A model generated the notes under the pieces. The model ran no database searches. It had not been told where the DNA came from and saw only the letters and a list, made by a program, of their open reading frames with translations. Source: Desulfobacterales bacterium (GTDB lineage: Bacteria > Desulfobacterota > Desulfobacteria > Desulfobacterales > QNYZ01). Taken from it: a DNA stretch of 12,394 nucleotides. Position numbers and translations under genes: made by a program. Positions 2,765-12,394 of this stretch are shown one piece after another. Where the stretch lies: assembly GCA_029938515.1 (NCBI GenBank), contig JAOZUU010000010.1:4036-16429 (forward strand), given 5' to 3'. The stretch's first letter is position 1. Every line of letters starts with the position of its first letter.

Positions 2765-2833
2765 GTCATGCCCGTACGGGCGGGGATTTAGTGGCTTCAG
2801 CGGTTTATTGATTCCTGCCTGCGCGGGAATGAC
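2765..2833. repeat. REP-like inverted repeat pair before lnt
   Basis: The left arm (2765-2788, starting GTCATGCCCGTACGGGCGGG) is an imperfect reverse complement of the right arm (2810-2833, ending GCGCGGGAATGAC); about two thirds of the positions pair across a 21-base loop. The GTCATTCCCGC..GCGGGAAT(C) style is that of a very common class of bacterial palindromic intergenic elements. When translated, such elements give the tell-tale peptide IPACAGMT, seen here just ahead of the true Lnt start. It probably inserted between the protease operon and lnt, and its transcript could fold as a strong hairpin. Confidence 0.6.
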
Positions 2834-2840
2834 AATACAG

Positions 2841-4457
2841 ATGACTTTATACGGCACCATTAAAAACACTGGCATCAGCATTTTTTCATCTGTTCTCCTC
2901 GTCAGCCTGTTTCCCGATTGGAATCTGGGCCTCCTGGCATGGATCGCGATCGTGCCGTTGCTTTTGGTCGTTTCGCGTCGGGGGCGAATAGACGGATTTC
3001 TTCTCGCCTATTTATGCGGAATTTTATTTTTTTTAGGCACGTTCGACTGGATCCGTAACATTGCTTATTATCGATGGTATCACCACGCGATCCTGGCGCT
3101 TTATTTAGGCGCCTATTTCGGTCTTTTCGGTTTGGGAGTGGGTTATGTTTCCAAACGTATGGGGCAGCCCGCAGGTCTGTGGGCCGCCCCCTTTCTCTGG
3201 GTAGCACTGGAATACATCCGCTCAAATTTCTTTTTTTTGGCCTTACCCTGGCAATTGCTCGGCCACTCACAGTACCAACACTCGGCAGCTATTCAGATTG
3301 CCGCCTTGTTCGGCACTTACAGCATCAGCTTCCTGATCGTTTTGGTGAATGCGGGAATCGCGTGCCTGGTGCTCCTTTTATTATCCTTATTACAGGAGCG
3401 AAGATCTCAGCAAAGCTGCAAGATGGTTTCTAAAAAATGGGCCCTTGCGCTGGTATTTTCAGCCGTATTATGCACGGTCTTGAGCCTGGGATACGGCCAT
3501 CGGGCCATCTCGAAAACAATGATTGGAAAACCGATCGATGTCGCCATTGTCCAAGGGAATATCGACCAACGTAAAAAGTGGGATCCGAAATATGCCGATG
3601 AGATCATCCGGATCTATGAGGACCTAACGTTGAAAGCCGTCTGGAATCGCCCGGAGCTGATTATCTGGCCCGAAACGGCCACGCCCGGATCGATCTCGCT
3701 CAATCCCGAGATTTTAAATGAACTCAAACAGATGGTCCTCAAAACGGGGACACCCCTTGTTTTCGGAAGTGCCCAGCATCAGAAATTCATGAAAGCTGAA
3801 CAGGAAAGGCCTCATTTAGTCAATTCCGGTTTTCTGATGAACCCCGGGAATAAAAAATCTGAATTACAGCAGTATGATAAAATTCGACTTCTCCCTTTCG
3901 CTGAATATTTACCCCAGAAGGAAATTATTCCATGGAAATGGATTAACGTTTCCAGCCTAAGCGAGTATGATCCCGGTCAGCAGCCTGTTGTTTTCGAATT
4001 GCCGCCATATCGATTCGGAGTAACCATTTGCTGGGAAAACATTTTTCCGGATTTTATCCGACAATTTGTAAAACGGGGCGCCCAGTTCATTGTAAACATC
4101 ACCAACGAGGCCCGGTTTGGAAAAACCGCCGCACCCCGTCAACTTTTGGCCATCAGTGTGTTTCGTGCCGTAGAAAACGGAATTTTCATTATTCGTTGCG
4201 CAAATACCGGGGTTTCGTGTATCATTGATCCCCGTGGACGAATCGTCAAACGGCTTCAGGATGAAAACGGTCAGGATCTGTTTGTCAGGGGTATATTAAA
4301 TGGAACGATCATTCCCACGGATTCGAAAACTTTTTATACCCGCAATGGAGATCTGGTCCCCATTCTGGCCATAGCGGTGTCTTTGGTTTTCATATTCATC
4401 GCCTGGTCGAAACCGTTAGCCAAAAGGAAAAATACCCATGACATCGAAGGACAATAA
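2841..4457 (+). CDS. lnt: Apolipoprotein N-acyltransferase
   Basis: This inner-membrane enzyme adds the third, amide-linked acyl chain from a phospholipid to the N-terminal cysteine of lipoproteins, the last step of lipoprotein maturation and normally needed for Lol sorting to the outer membrane. From the ATG at 2841 it has 538 residues (E. coli Lnt has 512). The N-terminal half is a bundle of membrane helices, a nitrilase-like periplasmic domain follows, and one C-terminal helix (near VPILAIAVSLVFIFIAW) closes it. The catalytic triad is intact: Glu278 in WPETATPG, Lys347 in YDKIRLLPFAEYLP and Cys397 in ICWENIFP, matching E. coli E267, K335 and C387. Glu355 in PFAEY matches the essential E343. 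NITNEARFG replaces the usual NDxWFG-type segment, a mild deviation. Upstream in-frame starts (TTG 2808, ATG 2829) fall inside the REP-like repeat and are disfavoured, though 2841 has no clear ribosome site. The 3' end overlaps the next gene by 20 bases, which suggests translational coupling. Confidence 0.95.
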   Translation: MTLYGTIKNTGISIFSSVLLVSLFPDWNLGLLAWIAIVPLLLVVSRRGRIDGFLLAYLCGILFFLGTFDWIRNIAYYRWYHHAILALYLGAYFGLFGLGVGYVSKRMGQPAGLWAAPFLWVALEYIRSNFFFLALPWQLLGHSQYQHSAAIQIAALFGTYSISFLIVLVNAGIACLVLLLLSLLQERRSQQSCKMVSKKWALALVFSAVLCTVLSLGYGHRAISKTMIGKPIDVAIVQGNIDQRKKWDPKYADEIIRIYEDLTLKAVWNRPELIIWPETATPGSISLNPEILNELKQMVLKTGTPLVFGSAQHQKFMKAEQERPHLVNSGFLMNPGNKKSELQQYDKIRLLPFAEYLPQKEIIPWKWINVSSLSEYDPGQQPVVFELPPYRFGVTICWENIFPDFIRQFVKRGAQFIVNITNEARFGKTAAPRQLLAISVFRAVENGIFIIRCANTGVSCIIDPRGRIVKRLQDENGQDLFVRGILNGTIIPTDSKTFYTRNGDLVPILAIAVSLVFIFIAWSKPLAKRKNTHDIEGQ

Positions 4458-7305
4458 AAATCGATCCTGGTTCGCATTCGGCCTTGTCATGGCTTTTATT
4501 GTCACCGTTGCATCTCTTTATTTTTACAATATCCTCAAATGGGCGGATGAACCGGAATTCGGTTTTATCAGCCGATCCGGGACCGCAATTGATATTGTCG
4601 GGGGAGTGGAAAAAGAAGGCCATCAGGCGGGGTTGCGCCCAGGGGATCGTATCCTTTCGATAAATGGCAAAAAAATTCAAACCGTCCAAGAAAAGCGAGC
4701 GTTTCGAAATTATGGCCTTCAAGAGAAAAACACCTACGCCATCGAAAGAGGCGGTGATCGGTTTGAGGTCACTATCATCAACACGCCTGCCGGGTTCCCG
4801 AGGACTTTTAGACAAAGTGGCTTCCCCTATTTAGTCGGACTTAGTTATGTGTTAATCGGCATTCTGGTTTTTCTGATGAAGCCGCATCGGCACGATAGCT
4901 GGGTTTTCTTTATTTTTGCCACCTGCCTGGGATTGCTCATGATTTTTCTTTATAGAGGCGGGGCTTTGAAGCCATTCTGGGTGAATAATATCCACATATT
5001 CCTTTACTCTTTTACTCCGGGTGCAATCCTCCATCTGGCCCTCTCAGTTCCGGTAAAACGAAACTTGGTCATCAGATATCCTTTAGTCGAATTTTTGCCA
5101 TACGTTGCTTCACTGCTTTTATTTATCGGTATACGGTCATCCGCGTCTGAGATGCTGGCGGTTTCCAAGACATGGTATTTGATCCTTTTGTCGTATTTTG
5201 TCCCGGCTTTGATCGTGTATATTCTCTCCTGCCTTCATTTGTGGATGCGATCATCCTCTGTGATCGCCAGGGTACGCGCCAAGGCTATCCTGTTTGGTGC
5301 TCTCATCGCCACATCGGTGCCGATTCTGGATATGCTCTTCAGTAATCTTTTCAAAATTTACCTTGTTCCCAACTTCAATTACTACCTCCCCTTTTTTATC
5401 ATCTTCCCTCTATCCATCGGATATTCGATCACCAGGCATAACCTATTCGACATCACTACCGTTATCCGGCAAACCTTTGGTTATTTGCTATTAACGGCCG
5501 GTATCGCTATTATCTATTTTCTGGTCGTGGTTGTCCTTTCCCGGTTCTTGGGTGATATATGGCAGAAACAATCTCATTTTCTATTTCTGGCGATTTTTAT
5601 GATCGTCATGTTGTCGTTCGGGTTTCTCCGTAAGCGAGTCCAATCTTATGTGGACCGTATTTTTTTCCGAATGGACTTCGATTACAAGGAAACGGTTTCG
5701 CGAATCGGCATGGCCATGCGATCCTTGATCAATATCGACCAGGTCGTGGCGTTTATGAAGGACATCGCTGAAAACGTGCTGTTCGCCGGGCCGAGTTACG
5801 TCATGCTTTTAAACCAGGAGAAAAACGCCTACGAATGTGCGGCCGAATCCTGTTCCGTGACGAGCCTGCCGGCCGGGGAACTGCTGATCCGGAAAATTGC
5901 CGAGCAAAAAAGAGAAATAACCCGCTACGACATTGACGAAAACCCGCTTTTTGCCATCGATCGCGAGGCGTGTAAAGAGACCTTCAGCCGCCTGGGTGCC
6001 AGTTTGATCGTCCCGCTCATCTATGAAGACCATCTCTCCGGATTTATGGCGCTGGGAAAGAAAAAGTCGGGCAAGATTTTCAAGTATGAGGACGTGCTCC
6101 TTTTGAAGACCCTGGCCAACCAAGGGGCCATGGCCATCGAAAATGCCCGTCTGTTTACCGATCTGGAAGGGCAGACCGACACGTTATTGAAAACCAACGT
6201 CAAACTCGAAATGGAGATCGATCAGCGCAAAAAGGCCGAAGCCGAGTTGAACAAATACAAGCGACAGCTTGAAAAAAAGGTGGAAAGGCAGACCGTGGAG
6301 ATTGACCGGAGCCGGAAGGCCCTGGCCGATTTAAAAGGTGATATCAAGCGGGGGCATCGCTTCGGGAGAATGATCGGTAAAAGCGAGTCGATGCAGGCGA
6401 TTTATGCCCTCATTCAGAATCTGGTCGATGTACCCGCCACGGTGTTGATTACCGGTGAAAGCGGCACGGGCAAGGAACTGGTGGCTGAAGCGCTTCATAC
6501 CGAAAGCCGCCGCAAGGATCACCCGTTTGTCAAGGTGAATTGCTCGGCTCTGTCTGAAAGCGTGCTGGAAAGCGAATTGTTCGGCCATGTGAAAGGGGCG
6601 TTCACCGGGGCCGATAAAAACAAGATCGGCCGATTTCAGAAGGCGTCTGATGGCACCATCCTTCTGGATGAAATCGGGGATGTATCGTTGAACTTTCAAA
6701 AGCGACTGCTGCGGGTACTTCAGGAACGTGAGTTTGAACGCCTGGGAGATACGATCACTCTTTCCATGGATGCCCGTGTCATCGCGGCGACCAATCAGAA
6801 CTTGCCGGAAAGGGTCAAACAGGGTGAGTTTCGTCAGGATCTTTATTACCGCCTAAAGGTGGTGGAAATCAAACTGCCGCCCCTGCGTGAACGCAAGGAG
6901 GATATCCCCCTGTTGATCTACCATTTTCTCAATGTCTTCAACGAGGAGCTGGGTAAAAAGATTGAGAGTGTTTCCCCGGAAGTGCTGCGCATCCTGATGG
7001 CCTATCACTGGCCGGGCAATGTCCGCGAACTTCGCAATACGCTGGAGCATATCTGTATCCTGTGTAAAAATATAACCATCGTCGAGGATGATCTTCCATC
7101 GGATTTTCCCGGCTATGATCTGGCGTATGACCCGTCGTTTCAGGCCTTTTCGGATGGCAAACAACCTTCCGAAACCCTTACGGTCGATAAACAAACCTTG
7201 TTGAAAGCGCTCGATCAAGCCGAGTGGAATAAAACCCGCGCCGCCGAGATCCTGGGCATCAGCCGCCGGACGCTGTATCGCCGGTTGAAGGAATACCAGA
7301 TATAG
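4438..7305 (+). CDS. Membrane-bound sigma-54 activator: PDZ, 10 TM, GAF, AAA+, Fis HTH
   Basis: A 955-residue enhancer-binding protein that should use ATP to open sigma-54 RNA polymerase promoters. Order of parts: one N-terminal membrane helix (about 12-33); a PDZ domain, with AGLRPGDRILSINGKKI at 64-80, which by topology faces the periplasm; about nine further helices (roughly 129-395), with positive cytoplasmic loops such as KPHRH and VKR; a GAF-like domain (about 420-580); a coiled coil (about 580-640); and the AAA+ domain with Walker A GESGTGKE at 673-680, GAFTGA at 720-725 (the sigma-54 contact loop), Walker B ILLDE ending at 745, and WPGNVREL. The C-terminus is a Fis-type HTH (931-955, NKTRAAEILGISRRTLYRRL). 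No receiver domain is present, so the signal probably passes from the periplasm and membrane through GAF and coil to the ATPase. AAGGA (4424-4428) gives a good ribosome site inside lnt. The lnt overlap may link it to envelope or lipoprotein status, but the signal and target promoters are unknown. Confidence 0.93.
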   Translation: MTSKDNKNRSWFAFGLVMAFIVTVASLYFYNILKWADEPEFGFISRSGTAIDIVGGVEKEGHQAGLRPGDRILSINGKKIQTVQEKRAFRNYGLQEKNTYAIERGGDRFEVTIINTPAGFPRTFRQSGFPYLVGLSYVLIGILVFLMKPHRHDSWVFFIFATCLGLLMIFLYRGGALKPFWVNNIHIFLYSFTPGAILHLALSVPVKRNLVIRYPLVEFLPYVASLLLFIGIRSSASEMLAVSKTWYLILLSYFVPALIVYILSCLHLWMRSSSVIARVRAKAILFGALIATSVPILDMLFSNLFKIYLVPNFNYYLPFFIIFPLSIGYSITRHNLFDITTVIRQTFGYLLLTAGIAIIYFLVVVVLSRFLGDIWQKQSHFLFLAIFMIVMLSFGFLRKRVQSYVDRIFFRMDFDYKETVSRIGMAMRSLINIDQVVAFMKDIAENVLFAGPSYVMLLNQEKNAYECAAESCSVTSLPAGELLIRKIAEQKREITRYDIDENPLFAIDREACKETFSRLGASLIVPLIYEDHLSGFMALGKKKSGKIFKYEDVLLLKTLANQGAMAIENARLFTDLEGQTDTLLKTNVKLEMEIDQRKKAEAELNKYKRQLEKKVERQTVEIDRSRKALADLKGDIKRGHRFGRMIGKSESMQAIYALIQNLVDVPATVLITGESGTGKELVAEALHTESRRKDHPFVKVNCSALSESVLESELFGHVKGAFTGADKNKIGRFQKASDGTILLDEIGDVSLNFQKRLLRVLQEREFERLGDTITLSMDARVIAATNQNLPERVKQGEFRQDLYYRLKVVEIKLPPLRERKEDIPLLIYHFLNVFNEELGKKIESVSPEVLRILMAYHWPGNVRELRNTLEHICILCKNITIVEDDLPSDFPGYDLAYDPSFQAFSDGKQPSETLTVDKQTLLKALDQAEWNKTRAAEILGISRRTLYRRLKEYQI
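6256..6763 (+). repeat. Duplicated sigma-54 output module, copy 1
   Basis: This part of the membrane-bound activator (second half of the coiled coil plus the first part of the AAA+ domain) aligns without gaps to 11887-12394 at an offset of 5631 bases. From the serine of SRKAL onward I count 22 differences in 151 residues, about 85% identity. DNA words such as GAAAGCGGCACGGGCAAGGA and GAAAGCGTGCTGGAAAGCGA are unchanged. The copies probably come from tandem duplication or later gene conversion. The similarity must continue to the right, but the window ends inside copy 2. Confidence 0.9.
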
Positions 7306-7321: not shown

Positions 7322-7349
7322 AAAATCCGGCGTCATCTCCGTGGATTTT
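7322..7349 (+). other. Small hairpin in the 54-base gap between the two activators
   Basis: AAAATCC (7322-7328) and GGATTTT (7343-7349) form a perfect 7-bp stem with a 14-base loop. It ends 10 bases before the ATG of the giant kinase gene, where one would expect a ribosome site, and no Shine-Dalgarno sequence is visible. The stem could be a weak terminator or attenuator, or could modulate translation of the next gene. I see no promoter in the gap, so read-through from the upstream gene is likely. Confidence 0.35.
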
Positions 7350-7359
7350 GTTGACTTTT

Positions 7360-10300
7360 ATGACTCGATTTTCAGGATACCATATAGAGCAAAAGATTTA
7401 TGAGAGCAGCGGAACGCTTATCCTTAGAGCGAAGGGTAAAGAAGATGCCCAGACAGTGATCTTAAAGGTGCTGAAGCCGGAGCATCCCAAACCTGAACAG
7501 ATCCGCCGGTTTCAAAATGAATATAAAACCGCCTGTCGCGTGACCTCACTTAAAGGGGTCATCGAGACCCACTCACTGGAAAACGTTGATAACCGCTTCA
7601 TCATGGTCATGGAGGATTTCGGTGCGGTCTCCCTGGATATCCTGATGAAAAATGACCGGTTTTCTCTCACCAGGGTGCTTGCCATTGCCATTGCGGTCAC
7701 CCGAGCCCTGGGAGAAATCCACGCGACCGGTATCATCCACAAAGACATCAATCCCGGCAACCTCGTTATTAACCCGGAAACCGACTGCCTGAAGATCATT
7801 GACTTTGGCATTGCCACCACCGTATCGGAAGAGATATCGGCCAGGGCAAATCCGGATGTGATCGAGGGTACTTTGACATATATGTCACCGGAACAGACAG
7901 GCAAGGTAAACCGGGCCATTGATCACCGTACCGATTTTTATTCACTAGGTGTCACCCTTTACACGTTGCTGGTACATAAAGTACCCTTTAATGGCTGCGA
8001 CCCGGCAGAATTGATCCATGCCCATCTGGCCAGGCAACCAATTCCACCAAAAGATCTTCGATCATCCATCCCCGGGATCGTTTCCGATTTAGTTATGAAA
8101 CTGCTGGCAAAGAACCCCGATGATCGTTATATAAACGCCGCCGCGATTGAATCCGACCTGACGAAATGCCTTGATGTGTCTCAAACAATCCGTCCAGACC
8201 AACGTTTTTTATTGGGTCGCCAGGATTTTCAAACAACCATGAAAATTGCCGACAAACTCTATGGACGGGATCCGGCCCTGGAAAGGTTGCAAAAGGCCTT
8301 TCAACAGGCCCGTGCCGGTGAAAGCCGTCTGTTTCTGGTCACGGGATCTGCCGGCATCGGTAAAACGACTCTGGTCAATGCTCTTCGCCGAACCGTGACT
8401 CAAAAAGGCGGACGTTTTATTGCCGGAAAATACGATCCACTTCAGCGCAACATCCCTTACAGCGGCCTTATTTTTGCGTTACAGGAACTCGTCAGGCAAT
8501 TGTTAACCCTGCCCGAGTTGAAGTTAAGCGAATTGCGTCAGGCGCTTCTAAAGTCCATTGGCACCACTGGGCAGGTCATTATCGATCTGGTTCCTGATTT
8601 GGAGATGGTTCTGGGCCCTCAACCACCAGTGGCGGCGCTTGCGCCTGTCGAATCCCTTAATCGGTTTTTTGTTGTGTTTGAGAAATTGATGCGGGTTTTG
8701 GCCAAACCAGACATGCCGCTGGTCCTGTTTCTGGATGATTTACAATGGATTGATGGCGCCTCACTTAAACTGGTCCAAATTCTGCTTACATCCAACATGG
8801 TGGAATCCATACTGGTGATTGGCGCCTACCGGGACAACGAGAGGGAACAGGCCCATGTATTGGAAACAGCGCTGGCGGATATCCAAGCGGAAAAAATTCC
8901 CGTAGATTTGGTCCGCCTCGAACCGCTGAAATCATCTCATCTGGTACAGTTGGTTTCCGACAGTTTCGGGTGTTCCCCCACCAAAGGCCAACCCCTTGCC
9001 GAATTGATTATGGACCGCACCCTCGGAAACCCGTATTTTATTCATGAATTTTTAAGGTCGCTGCATGCACAACAATTAATCCGCTCTGACCCGGCCAATA
9101 GGACCTGGCAATGGTCGCTTTCGACGATTCGCGCATCAGCACTGCCGGATGGTCTCGCTGCCCTGCTGACAAACAAAATTCAATCCCTTTCCAGGGAAAG
9201 TCAGGAATTACTGAAGATGGCCGCTTGTATCGGTTGCCGATTTGAATTCGGTATCCTCCTGGCTGTCGTATCTGAAAAAACCAGGGGCAATATTACCGAT
9301 ACCCTGCGGCAGGCTGTTAAGGCGGGGCTAGTTATCCCTCCTGAAGATGAGATCCCGTTTGGCGATATTGAATCTCACAATAAAGATATAACGACCCGGG
9401 CTGAATACCGGTTTAGCCATGACCGTATCCAGCAGGTCATTTATCGGCTTGTAACGCCGGCGGAAAAAACCCGATTCCATTGGAAAATCGGACAAATTAT
9501 GCTGTTACGCGCGACAACCGGGAAACGCAAACGGCATATATTCGATATTGTCAATCAGCTCAATACGGGGGTTCGTCATTGTTGTTCACCCGCCGATCGT
9601 ATTCAACTGGTTCGTCTGAATCTGGATGCCGGGCAAAAAGCAAAAGCGGCCCTGGCCTACGATTCGGCGTTTAACTATTTTGAGATCGGAATTGATCTCT
9701 TAAATCGTTTTCATTCAGAGACGACCGAGCCACAATCACCCTGGAAAAAAGAATATGAGTTGACCCTGACACTCTATCTGGAGGCCCTGGAATCAGCTTC
9801 GCTTAGTGCCAGATTCAGTGAGATCGACAACTTGGGGCTGGCCGTTTTATCCCATGCGAAAAGTCTTCCGGATAAAATGAAGGTTTACGAGGCCAAATGC
9901 TATGCTTTCTACACCCAAAACGATTTGCAAGGCGCGGTGGATACCGTTTGTACGGCTTTGGGGCTATTGGGTATTAAAATTCCCCGAAATCCTCGCAAAT
10001 CAAATGTTATCATCGATTTTATGAAAACCAGATTGGCATTGGCAGGTAAAAGCACCAGGCAGATTGAAAATTCCTCACACGTGACAAATCCTGAGAAGCT
10101 GGCTGCCCTGAGCTTGATTTATACGGTACTGCTGCCATCCTATTACGTTAACCCCAATCTTTTTCCTCTCTTCGTTTTCAGAGGCGTACGGATTTCGGTA
10201 CACCATGGGACAACGGCTAATTCCGCCTTTGCTTATGCCGGATACGGCCTGATCCTTTGCGGTGTTTTGGGTCAAATTGAAAAAGGCTATCATTTTGGCC

Positions 10301-12394
10301 GGCTTGCACTCAAACTGATGGATCAATTTGATATCCAGCAATATAAATGCCGGACACTGGTAACGGCGCATACATTTACGACTCATTGGAAACATCATTT
10401 GGGTGAGACACTGCAACCGCTGCTGGATGCCCATCAGAGCGGGCTTGAAACCGGTGATATCGAATTTGCGGCCATCGCCGTCTATCTTTATTCGTTAAAC
10501 CAGTTTTACATGGGCAGAAGCCTGGAACAATTGGAAAAGGTGATGGCCACCTTCGAACAAACCATTTATCACCTGAAGCAGAAAATAACGCTCCAGTTCC
10601 AGAAAATTGTGCACCAGGCAGTGCTGAATTTGATTGGTCGCTCTCCAGACCGGTGCCGGTTGCTGGGCGAATGTTACAATGAAGAAAAAATGCTTCCCCG
10701 GCATAAGGAAGCGCTTGATCAGAATGCACTTTTCAGCGTTTTTTTGCTTAAAGCGTTTCTCTGCTTTCTTTTTAACCAGACACACCAAGCGGTTAACAAC
10801 AGCCGAGAGGCGGAAAAATATTTGGATAGTCAGACCGGTGCCACGGATACCCCCTTTTTTTATTTTTATGACTCGTTGATCGGATTGGCGGCCTATCCAA
10901 GTATGTCCAAATTAGAACAGAAACGGGTACTCAAGAAAGTTTCCGCCAATCAAAAAAAAATGAGGAAATGGGCCCGTTTCGGTCCAATGAACTATTTGCA
11001 TAAGTATCACCTGGTGGAAGCCGAACGCCTGAGCCTTAGGGGGGAAATACCACGGGCGCTTGACCGATACGATCAAGCCATTGAGGCTGCCCATCAATCC
11101 GAATATACTCACGAAGAAGCATTGGCCAACGAGTTGGCGGGAAGGTTCTGTGTTCGCCGGAAGGACAATGAAGCCGCAAAAGACTATTTAAAAAAGGCCC
11201 GCAATGCTTATCTGAAATGGGGAGCCATCGCCAAGGTCAAGGACTTGGACCAGCATCATGCCATGTTGTTTGAAAATCTGGTCCACAGGCCCGAATCGGG
11301 CTTTTCGACACCGGGTGAAGAAACCCTGGTCAACGGCTCAATAAAATCGCTGAATCTGGCCGCAATAATGAATGCGTCACTTTCCATCAGCAACGAGATT
11401 ATTTATCCCCGGCTGGTGAATCAGTTGATGCGGATTGTGATTGAAAATACCGGCGCCCAAAGGGGGGTTTTGATTTTAAATGACCGTGATACCCTGATGA
11501 TCAGGGCCAGCAGCTCAATAGATAAAGGAATGGTCGCTGAGTTGCACAAACACCCGTTAAATAAAAGCAATGACCTGCCCCTGACTATCGTGAACTATGT
11601 CAGCCGATCAGAAAAATACGTGATCCTGGAAAATTACGCCAGTGATCCGCTTTTTGCCGGCGACCCTTATCTGGCTAAAGAGCGGCCCCAGTCGATTTTG
11701 TGTTATCCCCTGAAAAATAAGTCCAAATTGATCGGGATGCTTTACCTTGAAAACAACCTTGTCAGCGGGGTGTTCAACCGACAGCGCCTGGAGGTGCTAA
11801 ATATACTGGGCGCACAAATTGCCGTCTCCCTGGAAAATGCAAGGCTTTATACGGACCTTGAAAGCCAGGCCAACGAATTGAGTAATTACAAGCAACGACT
11901 TGAAAAAACGGTGGAACAACAGACCGTCGAGCTGGATCTGAGCCGGAAGGCGCTGGCCGATTTAAAAGGCGATATCAAACGGGGACATCGGTTTGGCAAA
12001 ATCATTGGTAAAAGTGAGCCAATGCAGGCGATTTATGCCCTTATTCAGGATCTGGCCGATGTGTCCGCCACGGTGCTGATTACCGGCGAAAGCGGCACGG
12101 GCAAGGAACTGGTCGCCGAGGCACTCCACACCAGTGGACGGCGACGGGATAAACCGTTTATCAGGGTCAATTGCGCGGCCCTTTCGGAAAGCGTGCTGGA
12201 AAGCGAGCTGTTCGGACATATCAGGGGTGCCTTTACCGGGGCCGACCGGGACAAGATCGGCCGGTTCCAGAAGGCCGGCGACGGCACCATTCTTCTGGAT
12301 GAGTGCGGGGAGGTGTCGCTGCATTTTCAAAAGAGGCTGCTGCGGGTGCTCCAGGAGCGCGAGTTCGAACGCCTGGGCGACACCGCCACCCTGC
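7360..12394 (+). CDS. Giant Ser/Thr kinase - AAA ATPase - TPR - GAF - sigma-54 activator (3' end outside window)
   Basis: An open frame of 1678 codons runs without a stop to the right edge, so the gene is partial. The ATG at 7360 fits the family N-terminus (GYHIEQKIYES). Kinase domain (about 1-270): Lys36 in VILK, Glu54, HKDINPGN at 127-134, Asp148-Phe-Gly, and GTLTYMSPEQ at 170-179. The glycine loop is degenerate, as is usual in this family. A PknK/AAA_16-type ATPase follows: LYGRD at 300, Walker A GSAGIGKT at 329-336 and Walker B LFLDDLQWID at 456-465. Residues about 700-1310 are helical and TPR-like. A GAF domain spans about 1328-1500, then a coiled coil and a sigma-54 AAA+ domain with GESGTGKE at 1576-1583, GAFTGA at 1623-1628 and Walker B LLDE at 1645-1648, where the next residue is Cys1649 instead of the usual Ile. 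No membrane helix is seen, so it is cytosolic. Relatives usually end in a histidine kinase; here the output is sigma-54 activation. The signal is unknown. The ATPase-TPR part resembles STAND-type sensors that bind ligands or partner proteins. A Fis-type HTH is expected beyond the window. Confidence 0.92.
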   Translation, partial: MTRFSGYHIEQKIYESSGTLILRAKGKEDAQTVILKVLKPEHPKPEQIRRFQNEYKTACRVTSLKGVIETHSLENVDNRFIMVMEDFGAVSLDILMKNDRFSLTRVLAIAIAVTRALGEIHATGIIHKDINPGNLVINPETDCLKIIDFGIATTVSEEISARANPDVIEGTLTYMSPEQTGKVNRAIDHRTDFYSLGVTLYTLLVHKVPFNGCDPAELIHAHLARQPIPPKDLRSSIPGIVSDLVMKLLAKNPDDRYINAAAIESDLTKCLDVSQTIRPDQRFLLGRQDFQTTMKIADKLYGRDPALERLQKAFQQARAGESRLFLVTGSAGIGKTTLVNALRRTVTQKGGRFIAGKYDPLQRNIPYSGLIFALQELVRQLLTLPELKLSELRQALLKSIGTTGQVIIDLVPDLEMVLGPQPPVAALAPVESLNRFFVVFEKLMRVLAKPDMPLVLFLDDLQWIDGASLKLVQILLTSNMVESILVIGAYRDNEREQAHVLETALADIQAEKIPVDLVRLEPLKSSHLVQLVSDSFGCSPTKGQPLAELIMDRTLGNPYFIHEFLRSLHAQQLIRSDPANRTWQWSLSTIRASALPDGLAALLTNKIQSLSRESQELLKMAACIGCRFEFGILLAVVSEKTRGNITDTLRQAVKAGLVIPPEDEIPFGDIESHNKDITTRAEYRFSHDRIQQVIYRLVTPAEKTRFHWKIGQIMLLRATTGKRKRHIFDIVNQLNTGVRHCCSPADRIQLVRLNLDAGQKAKAALAYDSAFNYFEIGIDLLNRFHSETTEPQSPWKKEYELTLTLYLEALESASLSARFSEIDNLGLAVLSHAKSLPDKMKVYEAKCYAFYTQNDLQGAVDTVCTALGLLGIKIPRNPRKSNVIIDFMKTRLALAGKSTRQIENSSHVTNPEKLAALSLIYTVLLPSYYVNPNLFPLFVFRGVRISVHHGTTANSAFAYAGYGLILCGVLGQIEKGYHFGRLALKLMDQFDIQQYKCRTLVTAHTFTTHWKHHLGETLQPLLDAHQSGLETGDIEFAAIAVYLYSLNQFYMGRSLEQLEKVMATFEQTIYHLKQKITLQFQKIVHQAVLNLIGRSPDRCRLLGECYNEEKMLPRHKEALDQNALFSVFLLKAFLCFLFNQTHQAVNNSREAEKYLDSQTGATDTPFFYFYDSLIGLAAYPSMSKLEQKRVLKKVSANQKKMRKWARFGPMNYLHKYHLVEAERLSLRGEIPRALDRYDQAIEAAHQSEYTHEEALANELAGRFCVRRKDNEAAKDYLKKARNAYLKWGAIAKVKDLDQHHAMLFENLVHRPESGFSTPGEETLVNGSIKSLNLAAIMNASLSISNEIIYPRLVNQLMRIVIENTGAQRGVLILNDRDTLMIRASSSIDKGMVAELHKHPLNKSNDLPLTIVNYVSRSEKYVILENYASDPLFAGDPYLAKERPQSILCYPLKNKSKLIGMLYLENNLVSGVFNRQRLEVLNILGAQIAVSLENARLYTDLESQANELSNYKQRLEKTVEQQTVELDLSRKALADLKGDIKRGHRFGKIIGKSEPMQAIYALIQDLADVSATVLITGESGTGKELVAEALHTSGRRRDKPFIRVNCAALSESVLESELFGHIRGAFTGADRDKIGRFQKAGDGTILLDECGEVSLHFQKRLLRVLQEREFERLGDTATL
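11887..12394 (+). repeat. Duplicated sigma-54 output module, copy 2 (cut by window edge)
   Basis: Gap-free partner of 6256-6763. The shared block begins in the coiled coil (YKQRLEKTVEQQTVEL against YKRQLEKKVERQTVEI) and goes on through Walker A, GAFTGA and Walker B to the last visible base. Changes are mostly conservative (K/R, V/I, D/E). The least conservative change near the active site is Ile to Cys just after Walker B. Just before the block, this copy is 21 residues shorter in the coiled coil than copy 1. Confidence 0.9.

Follow-up and report, generated by a model that had tools for sequence, protein, structure and literature searches.

The locus analyzed here raises the question of what a protein kinase fold does at the front of a polypeptide that ends as a sigma-54 activator, and whether such a polypeptide exists as a gene or only as a product of assembly or of exchange with its neighbor. 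The window, meaning the whole stretch of DNA under analysis (12,394 nucleotides), contains the fusion gene at its downstream end and a second regulator gene directly upstream, with the following features.

4438..7305, + strand: upstream neighbor, 955 aa, with PDZ, GAF, sigma-54 AAA+, lid and HTH_8 (Pfam)
7360..12393, + strand: fusion reading frame, 1678 codons seen, ATG at 7360, open at the contig end; alternative start TTG at 7348
7384..8142, + strand: protein-kinase fold, residues 9-261 (Pfam PF00069, 3.4e-33)
8254..8817, + strand: AAA_16 (STAND-type) NTPase, residues 299-486 (PF13191, 1.2e-42)
8827..11379, + strand: long region, residues 490-1340, its TPR-like nature weakly supported
11413..11832, + strand: GAF domain, residues 1352-1491 (PF01590, 6.4e-12)
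11833..12000, + strand: linker between GAF and AAA+, likely a coiled coil as judged from a comparison of linker lengths
12001..12387, + strand: sigma-54 AAA+ domain, residues 1548-1676 (PF00158, Sigma54_activat, 1.7e-52)

The reading frame from 7348 or 7360 to 12393 contained zero internal stops, and the ATG at 7360 agreed with the start in relatives. All motifs listed in the initial annotation (HKDINPGN, DFG, LYGRD, GESGTGKE and GAFTGA) were present in the translation. The AAA_16 domain carried the STAND NTPase motifs Walker A (GSAGIGKT) and Walker B (LVLFLDDLQW). In the C-terminal part, GESGTGKE (residues 1576-1583, nt 12085-12108), the Walker B motif of the sigma-54 AAA+ domain and the GAFTGA loop (residues 1623-1628, nt 12226-12243, and likewise in 23/23 fused relatives among the matches listed) were found, so that the visible part of the protein has the AAA+ Walker A/B motifs and GAFTGA that define a bEBP. 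The Sigma54_activat match covered profile positions 1-129 of 168, the best NCBIfam model was NifA (226.6 bits vs a cut-off of 528.85), and the best PDB chain was also NifA (9qq6_C).

The combination of kinase, AAA_16 and GAF is the defining front end of the trifunctional kinase/ATP-binding/sensor histidine kinase family, to which this front had been assigned from the outset; Pfam domains, motifs and relatives all agree with the assignment. Members such as P0031 and P0046 show the same order of kinase, AAA_16, long region and GAF, with about 43% identity to the window protein over 90% of the query. Their output is a histidine kinase, whereas the C-terminal histidine kinase is absent from the fusion protein and a sigma-54 AAA+ domain stands in its place, as proposed; relatives carry a histidine kinase or another output at that position. 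For the long region, the proposed TPR label was weakly supported: no Pfam TPR family reached its cut-off over residues 487-1340 of the fusion protein, and the best match, TPR_CHK1 (about 10873-11199), had an E-value of 6.9e-4 and 19.5 bits vs a cut-off of 27.

The window ends (12,394) where the contig ends (base 16,429), inside the paralogous sigma-54 module, and the R-finger, lid, HTH and stop of the fusion protein would fall past this point. A lid and HTH_8 lie at the C terminus of full-length relatives of about 1870 aa, and R-finger, lid and HTH were seen in P0001 and P0034. The missing tail was not found in the own genome (72% complete) using the last 190 aa of the neighbor as the query, the search giving 16 places, none above 45% identity except the neighbor itself. 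The termination of the contig within a paralogous module is what a misassembly that fused a kinase gene with a sigma-54 gene might leave behind, but we regard such a chimera as extremely improbable and reject it. The frame is continuous, with no sign of a break or join between 11800 and 12000, the interval in which one had been considered; full-length versions of the same order exist in other genomes (G100, G080, G270 and G191) and among catalogue proteins; and the longest exact match of the fusion to the upstream paralogue is 26 nt, which was judged short for an assembler to cross.

Relatives were collected by a protein-collection search that gave 6625 matches among 8000 scored candidates, of which the best 120 were examined. 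Kinase, AAA_16 and sigma-54 domains occurred together in 23/120 among the matches listed, in proteins of about 1800-1950 aa. P0001 spanned the entire query at 54% identity to the window protein in the order Pkinase, AAA_16, GAF, Sigma54_activat, AAA_lid_14 and HTH_8. Full-span versions were found in G100 and G080 among 146 genomes of related organisms, and frames with GAFTGA also in G104 and G051 (30 loci looked at). In the genomes of the order, a match reaching the sigma-54 part was obtained in at least 6 of 389, including the own genome and G217, whose contig begins at query position 364, and the versions in G270 and G191 matched over the whole length. In the phylum set of 395 genomes, G400 had two places, besides the own genome. 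These genome counts are lower bounds, the best candidates per genome having been scored with an E-value limit of 1e-280. Among the members with a taxonomic name are Desulfobacula sp. (P0018) and a Desulfobacteraceae MAG (L016). Because full-length versions occur in other genomes, the fusion is a real family, rare and scattered. The G400 locus L075:620-8307 contains a sigma-54 fusion and, behind it on one contig, the opening part of another related kinase frame.

A second search used the sigma-54 end of P0001 as the query, and the best 120 of 7944 matches were examined. PF00069 and PF00158 occurred together in 68/120 among the matches listed, 27 of them like the window protein in type and 41 shorter; those of the shorter type that bear a taxonomic name are Myxococcota, and some are called PknK by JGI. 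Proteins of this shorter type (P0188, P0163) have the same nominal domain order as the fusion; in P0188 it reads kinase, nSTAND_NTPase5, TPR, GAF, Sigma54_activat, lid and HTH_8. They differ in being mostly 1400-1550 aa long, in carrying nSTAND_NTPase5, in a sigma-54 module placed on a branch of the module tree separate from that of the window, and in mostly keeping the glycine loop and catalytic residues by pattern (HxD 41/41, D[FL]G 39/41, glycine loop 37/41). The separate sigma-54 branch together with these kinases, intact by pattern, indicates that the fusion of a kinase to a sigma-54 module has arisen more than once. Within the trifunctional-type fronts, the idea that groups A and B had acquired the sigma-54 output independently was considered and dropped, the two groups being apart on a 76-row tree and joined at 100 on the 108-row tree; we take the output to have arisen once for A and B together and independently in groups C and D (4 changes, 108-row tree). 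One frame lacking GAFTGA (L038, G053:C46) has a front end that groups within the sigma-54 fusions (with P0134, 99), and its output may have been swapped again.

The expectation that fusions of this kind are filed in databases under generic names agreed with the names of matches in both searches. A literature search, confined mostly to journals outside subscription, found no study of this architecture and no characterised example of it; the order itself is not unique, in view of the 23 and 68 proteins counted above, and undescribed examples are numerous.

The initial annotation had proposed coupling of Hanks-type phosphorylation to sigma-54, the kinase phosphorylating itself or the AAA+ part and so switching the sigma-54 motor. 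In the window copy the residues for this are in place, namely Lys36 (VAIK), Glu54 (alphaC), Asp129 (HxD), Asn134 and Asp148 (DFG), and because they are kept the predicted kinase may be active; the SPE motif is also intact, and the top PDB hits, PknB among them, are kinases from bacteria that are active. The intact patterns of the shorter, Myxococcota-type set likewise favor an active kinase. On the other hand, the glycine-rich loop (GxGxxGxV) was absent by pattern search from the window and from all relatives among the matches listed (0/120), and PDB kinases, PknB for example, align to the window kinase only from residue 24 on. The nearest relatives of the window (P0001, P0004 and P0011) have HRN, that is, they have lost Asp129, although kinases changed from HRD to HRN can retain weak activity. 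Among the 23 listed sigma-54-linked rows, Asp129 is replaced by Asn in 11 and Asp148 by Gly in 4, giving 15/23 without one or the other and none without both, as opposed to the listed rows with other outputs, the trifunctional family among them, in which Asp148 is kept in 97/97 and Asp129 in 95/97.

In a wider set of rows, 19/32 sigma-54-linked relatives have lost Asp129 or Asp148 and 13/32 keep both, and in three P0128-type proteins the HxD Asp is Ala. Loss also occurs with other outputs, in 8/42 loci (33 from genomes of the order and 9 from named records) and in 1/33 sampled proteins, the sample being every third of the 97 listed non-sigma-54 rows put in the 108-row tree. From this tree L016 and L056 (kinase not on contig) and L032 (frame split) were left out and the duplicates L020, L021, L022, L050 and L051 were removed; the two G400 copies were left out of the trees. 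The catalytic Asp underwent 13 state changes on the 108-row tree, and 13/18 rows of the window's group have lost it. One single loss of kinase activity in this group was rejected, since a single clade of losers gave a p-AU of 6e-44 for a group that was named after the tree had been seen. The catalytic Asp has been lost repeatedly, by separate events, among the sigma-54-linked relatives. Whether kinase loss goes with sigma-54 output was also considered: the raw counts of 19/32 vs 8/42 gave a Fisher p of 0.0006 on rows that are related to one another, but a test on independent pairs (three in number, median p 1) lent such a tie no support.

From the repeated loss of Asp, the absence of the glycine loop and the alignment of PDB kinases from residue 24, we conclude that catalysis is probably not what selection keeps in the window's group. 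Phosphorylation as the general mechanism of these proteins was not sustained, with 19/32 lacking one of the two Asp residues and the loop absent by pattern, and an active kinase switching the motor is for the same reasons, and because of HRN in the nearest relatives, an unlikely account of the family. An arrangement with two outputs, in which the kinase would have its targets in trans, among other proteins, and the sigma-54 part would separately answer a STAND/GAF signal, is considerably less probable still. Among the matches listed, the same front bears histidine kinase, PP2C/SpoIIE, cyclase, GGDEF and HD outputs by Pfam, so that a front is not bound to act on the output it carries; however, this arrangement leaves the candidate kinase without a known substrate and faces the same loss of catalytic residues.

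The kinase fold would then more probably serve as a regulatory or nucleotide-binding module, and the segment between GAF and AAA+ offers a route by which its state could reach the motor. The linker was measured in 36/37 proteins as the distance between the GAF end (ENA) and Walker A, P0034 having no GAF-end motif. A length of 105 residues was found in 33/36; two sister proteins have 98 and the window copy 84, three heptads (21 residues) below the common length. Each of the three values is divisible by seven. The independent changes of length are few, namely two; since both keep the heptad register, the linker is likely a coiled coil that passes the signal. A common linker motif across outputs was sought by pattern and dropped (5/23 and 16/97).

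The origin of the sigma-54 module itself was examined by comparison with the upstream neighbor, which lies on the same strand with a 54-base gap. From residue 1506 on, the closest sequence found to the fusion protein was this neighbor, at 83% aa identity over 173 residues, vs 76% for the G007 counterpart of the neighbor and 75% for P0001, and the DNA of the two genes was 80% identical over 11874-12383. The GAF domain was 58% identical to that of P0001 and appears to have been inherited with the kinase front. In the module tree the window, both neighbors and the P0001 group formed one set of 7 rows (96/91), within which the window paired with the G007 neighbor (98/86) and not with its own neighbor. 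The sigma-54 end may have been swapped in recently, or gene-converted, from the adjacent PDZ/GAF/sigma-54 gene, and both proteins may act at common promoters or in mixed rings. The higher identity to the neighbor (83% vs 75% to P0001), the grouping in the tree and the close co-oriented placement speak for this reading, and we hold it as a tentative possibility falling short of even weight, considering that own neighbor and window are not sisters, that the comparison covers just 173 residues, and that full-length fusions occur without such a neighbor in the stretches examined (e.g., G191 and G080). The latter indicate that the fusion itself is older. More generally, these comparisons make it plausible that the fusion and the membrane-type regulator have exchanged the module, in either direction.

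G007 and G062 both conserve the block consisting of the gene at 572-2026, apolipoprotein N-acyltransferase and the neighbor. In G062 the neighbor (L053:5679-8570) is broken, showing two TAA in one view and three frames in another, and no kinase follows it in the 1.7 kb left on that contig; the contig of G007 stops too early to show one. The protein encoded at 572-2026, adjoining the acyltransferase in both genomes, looks secreted and contains HExxH as well as an acidic stretch of the DxDxD type; it had no Pfam match, and the archaemetzincin model gave 20.6 of 145 bits, well below the cut-off. The contig carries, upstream of the window, an AAA_14/DUF4143 gene (L009:593-1918) and a gene (L009:1919-2890) whose product shares 48.6% identity with the apolipoprotein N-acyltransferase (window 2808-4457) across 286 aa. 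Conserved gene context was discarded as a clue to the target, as flanks vary among relatives: G191 has a BTAD/TPR regulator, G100 a polyketide-synthase-like gene, and G080 a cyclase/AAA_16 gene and another GAF/sigma-54 regulator. A sigma-54 promoter in the window was likewise discarded, with 4 matches vs 6.0 expected and none beyond chance.

Taken on balance, the fusion protein is probably a multi-sensor cytoplasmic sigma-54 enhancer-binding protein in which the kinase fold has mainly a regulatory role. Its front, made up of this fold, the STAND-type NTPase, the long region and the GAF domain, would probably respond to nucleotide, to partner proteins or to small molecules; the state of the GAF domain would be transmitted through the register-constrained linker to the AAA+ domain; and this domain would assemble as a ring, touch sigma-54 through GAFTGA and drive promoter opening with ATP. 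We infer this direction of control, the assembly of the ring and DNA binding by an HTH past the contig end from domains and motifs, from full-length relatives with lid and HTH_8, from the Asp losses, the missing glycine loop and the linker heptads, and from rpoN in the own genome (PF04552, 208.3 bits, G000:C152). Weighing against the regulatory role are the retention of both Asp residues in the window copy and 13/32 sigma-54-linked relatives, the losses with other outputs and the three pairs that gave no tie to sigma-54, the weak activity that HRN kinases may keep, the restriction of linker changes to two, and the promoter matches in the window, which did not exceed chance. A more specific version, which we consider doubtful though somewhat less so than an active kinase, would make these proteins a lineage of pseudokinase-gated sigma-54 activators: occupancy by ATP or ligand, not phosphotransfer, would set the STAND/GAF front and the AAA+ ring via the heptad-counted coiled coil, the window copy would be among the few in its group keeping both Asp residues, and the motor module would have been exchanged with the adjacent membrane-type regulator, both serving the same promoters.

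Compared with known systems, GAF-containing bEBPs of the NtrC/NifA type share GAF and AAA+ with GESGTGKE and GAFTGA, and the fusion differs from them by about 1340 preceding residues that hold the kinase, the STAND NTPase and the long region. The portion of a survey of sigma-54 activators covered here describes response-regulator, PAS and GAF types, and a kinase/STAND-gated class is not among the classes in that portion (PMC3162934). The fungal proteins Chk1/Mak2/Mak3 are described, in the part of the source consulted, as having an N-terminal Ser/Thr kinase domain and GAF before a histidine kinase (PMC5383687); they resemble the window protein in domain order and through the weak TPR_CHK1 match, a likeness by description, and unlike the fusion they end in a histidine kinase and response regulator. 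If the regulatory role proposed here is true, one conserved sensory front would serve many outputs, sigma-54 motors among them, and the presence of kinase-live and kinase-dead versions in one group would allow a direct test of non-catalytic gating.
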